45,782 bases of DNA from an uncultured Clostridia bacterium (lineage in GTDB: Bacteria; Bacillota; Clostridia; Lachnospirales; CAMVHY01): the NCBI GenBank assembly GCA_947073045.1, contig CAMTJU010000001.1, positions 1 to 45,782 of the forward strand, written 5' to 3'. The notes under the pieces are model-generated. The model was not told the origin of the DNA. It searched no databases and was given only the letters and a program-made list of their open reading frames with translations. The translations under genes and the position numbers were made by a program. This document shows positions 815 to 31,444 of this stretch, piece by piece; positions within the stretch are counted from its first letter, which is position 1, and each line of letters begins with the position of its first letter.

Positions 815-1740
815 TTTTTCATCTGCTCCTCAATTATTTCTTTAAGCATCGGATTTTCCATAACCTCTTTTATTTTACCAGAGTTTTTCAAAGCAATAAT
901 TGCATTTCTTTTTAATAAATTCGAACGCCAGATAAAAGCTGTATTTTTATATTTTTCCTTTAGCTTTTTATTACTCATAGTTAAAATATATTCTATGAGT
1001 GGCATTTTTTCATTAATATCATTAATTTCGCCAATATAAATTTTATTATACGGGCAAACAATTTGGCATACGTCACAGCCATAAAGTTGTTTACCCATTA
1101 TTTTTATTTCATGTGGCAAAAGTTTTTCATTTTTTTGTGTAAGATAAGATACACATTTTCTATAATCAAATCCATTTTCACTTAAAGCATGTCCAGGACA
1201 ATTTTCAACACATTTTTTACAGTCACTGCAAATATTTGTTTCAGTTTTTTTTATTGCAGTATGTTTCAAATTTAAATCTGTTATCATGTATCCAATAAAA
1301 AACATTGAGCCAAACTTTTGTGATATGATACAATGATTCATCCCAATAAATCCAAGACCAGCTTTAAAGGCCAATAATCTTTCATTCAGTGGACCAGTAT
1401 CAACAAAAATTTTGTATTCAAACTGAATATTTATTTGCCTTGCCAATTTTTCCAATAATTTTTTTAAAGTAATGTGGTAATCTTCGCCCACACATGACAT
1501 GGAAAAATTTCCACGTATTAAATTATCCGTTTTGAAGGAAATTTTTTTGTTGTATCCACATCCAATCACTATTATACTTTTGGCATTTTTCATAATTAAT
1601 TTAGGATTAATTCTCTGCTTTGCACTATAATTTACAAACGGAGCATTTGGCAAAATTATATTTGAAATTTTTTGGGCATCACATATTCCATAAATCAAAT
1701 TATTTTTTTTTGCAAACTCACAAATTAAATCTTCAATCAT
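787..1740 (-). CDS. queG: epoxyqueuosine reductase QueG
   Basis: QueG catalyses the last step of queuosine synthesis, reducing epoxyqueuosine in the tRNA anticodon with a cobalamin cofactor and two [4Fe-4S] clusters. The 317-residue protein shows the two ferredoxin-like cysteine motifs (CSDCKKCVENCPG near residue 190 and CDVCQIVCP near residue 235) and the family segment VDTGPLNERLLAFKAGLGFIG near the middle. It is somewhat shorter than QueG proteins that carry C-terminal HEAT-like repeats, although a short helical tail is present. AAAGGA lies just upstream of the ATG. Its end overlaps recU. No other queuosine gene is in the window. Confidence 0.94.
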   Translation of the reverse strand: MIEDLICEFAKKNNLIYGICDAQKISNIILPNAPFVNYSAKQRINPKLIMKNAKSIIVIGCGYNKKISFKTDNLIRGNFSMSCVGEDYHITLKKLLEKLARQINIQFEYKIFVDTGPLNERLLAFKAGLGFIGMNHCIISQKFGSMFFIGYMITDLNLKHTAIKKTETNICSDCKKCVENCPGHALSENGFDYRKCVSYLTQKNEKLLPHEIKIMGKQLYGCDVCQIVCPYNKIYIGEINDINEKMPLIEYILTMSNKKLKEKYKNTAFIWRSNLLKRNAIIALKNSGKIKEVMENPMLKEIIEEQMKKWDIGIAEA

Positions 1741-21756: not shown

Positions 21757-22467
21757 TTACAGTTGAATTGCAGTTTCAAGCGCAAGTTTCATCATTGTCG
21801 TGAAAGCAGTTTGTCTTTCCTCGGCCGTAGTTTCTTCTTTTGTTACCATATTATCACTAACTGTCAAAATGCAAAGGGCATTAGCATTATAACGCGCAGC
21901 ATTTAAATACAAAGCAGTTGATTCCATTTCTGCAGCAAGTACTCCCATTTTAGCCCAATTGAAAGTATCCTGAATATCTTCGCCATAGAATACATCCGTA
22001 GCTAAAACATTTCCAACATGCGGAGTAATTCCTAAATTTTCAGCAGTTTTGTAAGCAGTATTTAATAATTTCCAAGATGCAATAGGAGACATATTGCCAC
22101 TTAATTTAAACTGATCAGCAAAATGTGAATCGTAGCATGAACCCATTGCAAAAATTATATCGTATAATTTAATATCTTTTTGGATAGCACCGCATGACCC
22201 AACACGAATTAAATTTTTAACCCCAAAGAAATTAATCAATTCATAAGAGTAAATACCAATACTAGGATTACCCATTCCAGTTGCCATAACCGAAACTTCT
22301 TTACCATTATATTTTCCAGTAAAGCCTAAAATATTTCTAACTGCATTAAATTGCTGAGCATCACTCAAAAAATTATCAGCAATAAATTTTGCACGAAGAG
22401 GATCCCCCGGCAATAAAATTGTTTCTGCAATTGGTGCAGTTTGATTAATATGAGGCGTGTTTTTCAT
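21757..22467 (-). CDS. deoD: purine-nucleoside phosphorylase DeoD
   Basis: DeoD splits purine (deoxy)nucleosides by phosphorolysis. The 236-residue protein is of the trimeric/hexameric bacterial PNP type: LLPGDPLRAKFIA, MATGMGNPSIGIYSYEL, RVGSCGAIQ and the C-terminal TVSDNM segment are all present. AAGGAGCG lies upstream of the ATG. It is the first gene of the nucleoside operon and has a recognisable promoter about 90 nt upstream. Confidence 0.96.
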   Translation of the reverse strand: MKNTPHINQTAPIAETILLPGDPLRAKFIADNFLSDAQQFNAVRNILGFTGKYNGKEVSVMATGMGNPSIGIYSYELINFFGVKNLIRVGSCGAIQKDIKLYDIIFAMGSCYDSHFADQFKLSGNMSPIASWKLLNTAYKTAENLGITPHVGNVLATDVFYGEDIQDTFNWAKMGVLAAEMESTALYLNAARYNANALCILTVSDNMVTKEETTAEERQTAFTTMMKLALETAIQL

Positions 22468-22577: not shown

Positions 22578-22631
22578 AAGTTCATTACTTTTTTTGAAAG
22601 AAAGTAAACAAATAATTTTTAACAAAAACAA

Positions 22632-22735
22632 TAAAAAAATCTCAAGTATTGTGAACAGCATCCCATTTGTTAGACAGTATAGTAGTATACTGAAAAACAA
22701 ATGGGATACTGTTCAGAGCACACAACTTGAGATTT
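22632..22735 (-). terminator. terminator with a second palindrome nested in its loop
   Basis: The outer stem AAATCTCAAGT/ACTTGAGATTT (22637-22647 with 22725-22735) is followed on the minus strand by T7, so it terminates the operon ending in pncB. The loop is not short but about 77 nt long and itself folds: GAACAG/CTGTTC (22653-22658 with 22709-22714), ATCCCATTTGTT with its exact complement (22660-22671 with 22696-22707), and CAGTATA/TATACTG (22675-22681 with 22686-22692) around a 4-nt loop. The nested part looks like a palindromic element inserted into an ordinary terminator loop. Confidence 0.8.
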
Positions 22736-22769: not shown

Positions 22770-24206
22770 TCAATTTATAAGCGAGTATTTAATCGAAAAC
22801 AATTTATCAGATAAATCAACCGGCATAATTTCTGGATTAACAATTCTTTTATATTCACTCCATAGAGAATCAACCTGACTCATGCAATAATTTTTTATTT
22901 CGGACAGATTCGGTTTATTGTAAACTAATTTACCATTTAAAATAATTGGCTCTAGCATCTTGCATATATAATAAAAATTTTTTTCAAGCCGCATTTTTTT
23001 CCATGGCGCATTTGGATCAAATATAACTAAATCATTCTCGCAATCAAATTTTTCATCATGTATACCCAATAAATCTGCCTTGATTTTTTTAGATTTAGCA
23101 TCATAAATTCTAAAAATCTGTTTAAAGCAGGGCGTACTTATTTTCTCAGGATTCTCAGATATTTTTATTTTCGGCACAAGCTCACCGTTTTCATTTTCTA
23201 TCGCAACTAATTTATAAACTCCACCAAGTGCCGGATTTTTGTCCGCAGTAATTAATTTTGTACCAATGCCCCATGTATCAATTTTTGCATCTTGTTGCTT
23301 AAGCGACGCTATTAAATTTTCATCTAAATCATTTGAAACAACAATGCATGCGCTATAAAGCCCAGCTTCATCCAACATTTTTCTGATTACTTTAGTAAGG
23401 TATGCAAAATCTCCACTATCCAAACGCACTCCATATTTTTTTAGTTTCATCCCCTGCCCGATTAAATCCTTAAAAACTTTGATAGCATTCGGTACTCCAG
23501 ATTTTAAAGTATTAAACGTGTCCACAAGCAATATACAATTGTCAGGATACTGGCGCGCATATTCATAAAATGCTTCGAGCTCACTATCAAAACTCATAAC
23601 CCAACTATGAGAATGTGTGCCGCTCACCGGAATTTCAAAAAGCTTTCCCGCTAAAACATTACTTGTTGCATCGAATCCGCCAATAATACTTGCGCGTGTT
23701 CCATAAATTGCAGCATCTGGGGCTTGTGCTCTCCTAAGCCCAAATTCAAAAATTACGTTATCTCCCGTAACTTGCTTAATTCTATTTGCCTTGGTAGCAA
23801 TAAGCGTTTGATGGTTGATAATATTGAGTAATGCTGATTCTAAAAACTGTGCTTGAATTATCGGCGCCTTTACTGTCAAAAGCGGTTCATTGGGAAATGC
23901 AACACTACCTTCTTTCATCGCAAATACATCGCCCGTAAATTTAAAGTTCTTAAGATAATCGAGAAATCTTTTGCAAAAACAATTCTGACTACGCAAAAAT
24001 TTTATATCTTCATCCGAAAAACTTATATTCATAATATAATCAATAGCTTGCTCGAGCCCAGTTACAATTACATAACCATTACCAAAAGGATTTTTGCGAT
24101 AATATAAATCAAACACAGCAGTTTTATTTGCCATATTGCTTAAAAAAAATCCTTGCATCATTGTCAATTCATAAAAATCCGTCAGCATAGACAAGTTTTT
24201 TTCCAT
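22770..24206 (-). CDS. pncB: nicotinate phosphoribosyltransferase PncB
   Basis: PncB joins nicotinate to PRPP, the entry step of NAD salvage. The 478-residue protein begins MLTDFYELTMMQGFF, the family's N-terminal signature, and continues with EFGLRRAQAPDAA near residue 155, SGTHSHSWVMSF with the autophosphorylated His near residue 200, and LDSGDFAYL. Length is typical of Gram-positive forms. It is the last gene of the operon and follows yunB by 14 nt. Its Shine-Dalgarno sequence (GGGATGG) is weak for this genome. Confidence 0.95.
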   Translation of the reverse strand: MEKNLSMLTDFYELTMMQGFFLSNMANKTAVFDLYYRKNPFGNGYVIVTGLEQAIDYIMNISFSDEDIKFLRSQNCFCKRFLDYLKNFKFTGDVFAMKEGSVAFPNEPLLTVKAPIIQAQFLESALLNIINHQTLIATKANRIKQVTGDNVIFEFGLRRAQAPDAAIYGTRASIIGGFDATSNVLAGKLFEIPVSGTHSHSWVMSFDSELEAFYEYARQYPDNCILLVDTFNTLKSGVPNAIKVFKDLIGQGMKLKKYGVRLDSGDFAYLTKVIRKMLDEAGLYSACIVVSNDLDENLIASLKQQDAKIDTWGIGTKLITADKNPALGGVYKLVAIENENGELVPKIKISENPEKISTPCFKQIFRIYDAKSKKIKADLLGIHDEKFDCENDLVIFDPNAPWKKMRLEKNFYYICKMLEPIILNGKLVYNKPNLSEIKNYCMSQVDSLWSEYKRIVNPEIMPVDLSDKLFSIKYSLIN

Positions 24207-31418: not shown

Positions 31419-31444
31419 AAAATCTCAAGATTGCTTGAGATTTT
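31419..31444. terminator. bidirectional terminator after the phosphodiester-glycosidase gene
   Basis: A perfect 11-bp stem (AAAATCTCAAG at 31419-31429 with CTTGAGATTTT at 31434-31444) has a 4-nt loop and T-rich tracts on both strands; it lies 20 nt past the stop of the gene to the right. Its stem is the same sequence as the outer stem of the terminator at 22637-22735. Confidence 0.9.

Follow-up and report, generated by a model that had tools for sequence, protein, structure and literature searches.

Group IIC introns, which are retroelements without a DDE transposase, insert beside intrinsic terminator stems. The described systems nearest to the one reported here are the IS3-family elements IS1397, ISKpn1 and ISPsy8, which insert in REP palindromes (PMC1525189), and IS1272/TnSha1 (PMC4923244). 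The stretch of DNA analysed in the present study (hereafter the window; 45,782 nucleotides from an uncultured Clostridia bacterium of the order Lachnospirales) carries a related arrangement after pncB, the features of which are collected in Table 1. The palindrome found at this site is very probably a 64-bp non-autonomous left-end derivative of an IS3 lineage that resides in terminator loops, now immobile, with the pncB terminator probably retained.

Table 1 Features of the pncB terminator, its nested palindrome and the comparison terminator, in window coordinates.
Feature	Position	Strand	Remarks
Solo IS3-derived palindromic element (MITE)	22652..22715	.	Both termini are IS left-end copies, TGAACAGC...
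Inner perfect 12-bp stem	22660-22671 / 22696-22707		ATCCCATTTGTT / AACAAATGGGAT; within the 64-bp palindrome
Innermost hairpin of the 64-bp palindrome			CAGTATA/TATACTG
Outermost stem segment of the 64-bp palindrome			TGAACAG/CTGTTCA
Host terminator 3' arm (for pncB mRNA)	22637..22646	-	AAATCTCAAG on the plus strand
Host terminator 5' arm (for pncB mRNA)	22726..22735	-	CTTGAGATTT on the plus strand
Terminator U-tract in the pncB transcript	22633..22639	-	A-run on the plus strand
pncB, nicotinate phosphoribosyltransferase; transcript ended by the host terminator	22770..24206	-	NAPRTase domains PF17767, PF17956, PF04095
Gene resembling purine-nucleoside phosphorylase, at the head of a deoD-deoA-deoB-like run; in the downstream transcription unit	21757..22467	-	PF01048
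Uninterrupted terminator of the same type, for comparison	31419..31444	.	AAAATCTCAAG-ATTG-CTTGAGATTTT

It can be read directly from the sequence that the intrinsic terminator of pncB holds the palindrome in its loop. The 5' arm of the terminator starts about 34 nt past the pncB stop codon and a UUUUUUU run completes it on the minus strand, which is the order of stem and U-tract shortly past a stop codon expected of an intrinsic terminator. Folding of a 131-nt segment gave predicted energies of -46.8 kcal/mol (plus strand) and -55.6 kcal/mol (minus strand), with z of about -10 and none of 200 shuffles as stable, and the 105-nt core on the minus strand, corresponding to the pncB mRNA, reached z = -12.3. 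The nested palindrome that a sequence-only reading had placed in the terminator loop is therefore real, both in its directly legible arms and stems and against the shuffles; its three stems and perfect 12-bp segment were described correctly, and its length, given there as 62 nt, is 64 nt as measured. Despite the nested insert, the outer stem is still closed beside the U-tract in the prediction. Termination after pncB probably survives the insertion, since a self-complementary insert closes on itself and leaves the arms adjacent.

No target duplication is visible at either end of the window copy, which lowers the MITE assignment only a little because duplications decay and are not required of an old copy. 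In the only genome of the same family the orthologous site is not syntenic: a different gene follows pncB and no such element is found there.

Searching of the whole genome (1,166,444 bases in 36 contigs) placed the palindrome, complete or as its left half, at about 16 sites, a census that rests on sequence searches; for the most part these mark the left ends of decayed elements of the IS3 family. At four of them the palindrome is solo and has no transposase, namely at the window copy on contig C1 and at C2:32233, C8:197 and C19:16239. Within the window the exact arm ATCCCATTTGTT occurs only at the pncB site and is not enriched, so the family is invisible from the window alone; genome-wide the palindrome family is many-membered. 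The sequence-only reading had proposed that a small palindromic repeat entered a terminator loop, and had named a single genomic copy as one mark of its being wrong. Several solo copies and IS-borne copies were found instead, and the proposal is borne out in a sharper form, the repeat being a left-end palindrome of a terminator-loop IS3-family element. The window element is 64 bp long, has no coding capacity, ends in copies of the resident IS left end and has dispersed copies, as is typical of a MITE.

In most copies TTAAATT-ATG and a broken reading frame come straight after the palindrome and so place it immediately before orfA. Several nearly full-length IS copies of about 1.3 kb are present, 81-83% identical to the copy on contig C14, together with many fragments, and the transposase fragments match the rve/rve_2 integrase-core families (PF00665/PF13333/PF13683). 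The terminal inverted repeats are imperfect and of the TG...CA kind seen in IS3 elements, the left end reading TGAACAGCACCCCATTTGTTAGACA and the inverted right end TGAACTGACC...GTTAGACAAA. The full-length copies here are old, and no target duplication can be seen at them. The best transposase stretches contain stops and none of the transposase copies detected is unbroken; the element has thus probably lost its mobility and looks dead in this genome. The starts of two contigs (C8:1-257 and C23:1-107) share a common left flank, followed by a solo palindrome in one and a full IS copy in the other; this reflects either a duplicated region or mixed strains, and the two form a natural pair in which to study IS-to-MITE conversion.

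The two ends of the IS are unlike each other (the right one, inverted, reads TGAACTGACC... in this genome), and the MITE can accordingly be resolved as a left end plus an inverted left end. Solo palindromes also occur in genomes G215, G187 and G259, with lengths of 61, 77 and 62 bp, and the MITE ends of each genome carry the left-end letters of that genome (TGAACAG, TGAACTG, TGAACGG or TGAAATG, with matching partners). Two-sided changes were observed at 5 of the 20 pairs of the MITE ends, a level reached by none of 500 shuffles. The G187 palindrome lies within a terminator, together with a CTC duplication; the flanks of the G215 and G259 palindromes pair only weakly. In the G187 MITE a small inner palindrome of the left end is the point from which the second left-end copy starts, as would fit fold-back copying. 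The hairpin before orfA covaries across IS copies, suggesting that it matters to the IS itself, where it may perhaps block expression from transcription entering from outside.

The target in this genome was characterised from its ordinary terminators. The standard form is AAAAAATCTCAAGC-N4-GCTTGAGATTTTTT with variable loops, and 27 uninterrupted copies with exact ATCTCAAG/CTTGAGAT arms were counted, against none in the reversed control. Among 25 other genomes of the order that were searched, such a hairpin gave one match only. The arms of this stem (AATCTCAAG / CTTGAGATT) adjoin 13 of 15 left and 13 of 17 right element ends with at most two mismatches, compared with 4.5% of random window positions scored as a control, and the solo copy on contig C19 is without terminator arms. 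The stem being common to the sites in this genome and the copies being old, recognition of its sequence would also fit these data. The standard stem is strikingly uniform in this genome, possibly because recombination spread it or because it serves as an uptake sequence of the kind used by Neisseria. A second short palindrome, TTACTTTCTTGAAAGAAAGTAA, has 12 exact copies genome-wide (for example C17:23737-23758), several of which lie tens of bases from standard terminators, with a diverged copy at window positions 22586-22608; a third repeat, GCATCTCATTTTGAGCTGCTTCAT, adjoins some copies of this palindrome or of the standard terminators.

The left end was then sought in 295 genomes of the order and the transposase in 392. 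Fourteen genomes, that of the window included, contain the left end within three mismatches, and in other genera of the order the related IS3 elements are partly intact and also located in terminator loops. OrfB of one relative belongs to the IS3 family (NCBIfam NF033516, E 4.5e-90, 302.6 bits against a cut-off of 160). The terminator stems around these copies differ from one another (AAAAAGAACCGGA, AAAAACAGGGAGAACC, AAAGGGCTCCTTGCTG, AATAGCTGGAATCTTT, AAAACCGGA and others). For 13 two-ended copies within the lineage, joining the own flanks gained -13.6 kcal/mol on average, as good a value being reached by none of 200,000 permutations, and the own flank partner ranked first among 13 by folding energy in 8 of them; in two of the 13 (L230 and L227) no recognisable terminator surrounds the element. 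This folding-energy statistic replaced a count of paired bases (10 of 20,000 permutations), which is noisy in AT-rich flanks, and the switch was made after the first result had been seen.

Duplications of 3 bp (TTT, TAC, CAA, GCT, CTC and AGA) were found at the loop in six copies of the relatives, within the 3-5 bp usual for IS3 elements. The IS copy in G175 lies after an enolase gene, and at the corresponding position the terminator-like hairpin of six congeners is uninterrupted. No clear terminator flanks were seen at four more distantly related IS3 copies (L206, L207, L208 and L222), and the habit may therefore be confined to this lineage. G215 and G223 contain a recurrent terminator-like stem, GCTGGAATCC...GGATTCCAGC, in four and two exact copies respectively, and element copies sit in terminators of that type. 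At L196 in G223 an 80-bp element (1501-1580, minus strand) is an internally deleted IS composed of left and right ends only; situated in a terminator loop with a CAA duplication, it constitutes a second, non-palindromic MITE kind of the same lineage.

The near-constant AATCTCAAG arms around almost all copies in this genome, often with further short repeats at their flanks, could alternatively indicate that the mobile element includes the terminator arms, with arm, palindrome and arm forming one composite repeat and the plain terminators being its shortest form. This is improbable, as the spacer between arm and element end varies in letters and in length (2-10 nt) while arm and end stay conserved, and in the relatives the same element end is met with arms that differ between sites and pair best within their own site, 3-bp duplications lying between arm and element. 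On the site-specific arms of the relatives and their pairing within sites the composite repeat was rejected and is largely refuted. It is likewise quite unlikely that, along the lines of the second option of the sequence-only reading, the nested hairpin is a functional, selected 3' end of the pncB mRNA, acting as a stabiliser or a source of small RNA. Its very stable predicted fold and one compensatory C-G to T-A change in a palindrome arm relative to the IS consensus would agree with such a role, but the same palindrome is found at unrelated places and within transposons, an Rfam search of the window matched no family, the nested hairpin included, and both the transposon's own hairpin and palindrome repair would lead one to expect covariation just as much.

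That the palindromes are small, intergenic and close to gene ends also brings to mind a hairpin element of the REP/RAYT or IS200/IS605 type, mobilised by a Y1 transposase. We give this hardly any credence, given that orfA/orfB of the parent element are of the IS3 type with a DDE (rve) core, that its inverted ends are TGAAC...GTTCA and its duplications 3 bp long, and that none of the ORFs seen incidentally beside the copies is suggestive of a Y1 transposase.

The preferred reading thus remains the left-end derivative of a terminator-loop IS3 element. The palindrome family, its location, the lineage-wide association with terminator hairpins and the covarying ends are established by sequence comparison. 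Mechanistically, the IS3 lineage would take intrinsic-terminator hairpins with stems of differing sequence as its target, through a transposase that presumably recognises the hairpin, and would insert in or beside the loop with a 3-bp duplication. The left end of the IS carries a subterminal hairpin just before orfA, of which the MITE would be an extension to a full palindrome, most simply produced when the left end is copied by fold-back (template switching). The wider proposition, that a Lachnospirales IS3 lineage recognises the folded terminator hairpin and not its sequence, repeatedly sheds palindromic left-end MITEs by fold-back and finds in terminators a standing safe harbour for both, is put forward tentatively, and we hold it to be somewhat short of an even chance.

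Such a system could show how transposons colonise a small genome with low harm, the terminator loop being intergenic and tolerant of inserts, and a self-folding insert there would probably leave the terminator working. With it one can test whether a DDE transposase chooses its targets by structure. It would also account for oversized nested terminators that could be mistaken for regulatory RNAs, and it marks the insert in the window as a mobile-element relic.

A literature search, in which subscription journals and ISfinder were outside the coverage and novelty is accordingly unproven, did not find IS3 insertion into terminator loops with 3-bp duplications and fully palindromic left-end MITEs. 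Group IIC introns resemble the present lineage in using terminators as safe targets, and differ in lying beside the stem and in having no DDE transposase. MITEAba12 is, like the window MITE, short and non-autonomous with the ends of a resident IS; the parts of its description consulted report no terminator target (PMC6382973), and the window MITE is distinguished by its two left ends and by being palindromic as a whole.

Overall, IS1397, ISKpn1 and ISPsy8 share with the present lineage the IS3 family, an intergenic palindromic target and high target selectivity (PMC1525189). Their target is the repeated REP/PU sequence, whereas that of the present lineage is the intrinsic terminator, with stems varying by site and genus, and the present lineage has fully palindromic MITEs. 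IS1272/TnSha1, of the IS1182 family and hence with a transposase of another family, is alike in its insertion into hairpins without a sequence consensus, many of them transcription terminators (PMC4923244). When TnSha1 inserts, however, the stem is cut and a part of the hairpin is lost, with no duplication (PMC4923244), while in the present lineage the insert is found in the loop or beside it, accompanied by a 3-bp duplication, and both arms are kept.
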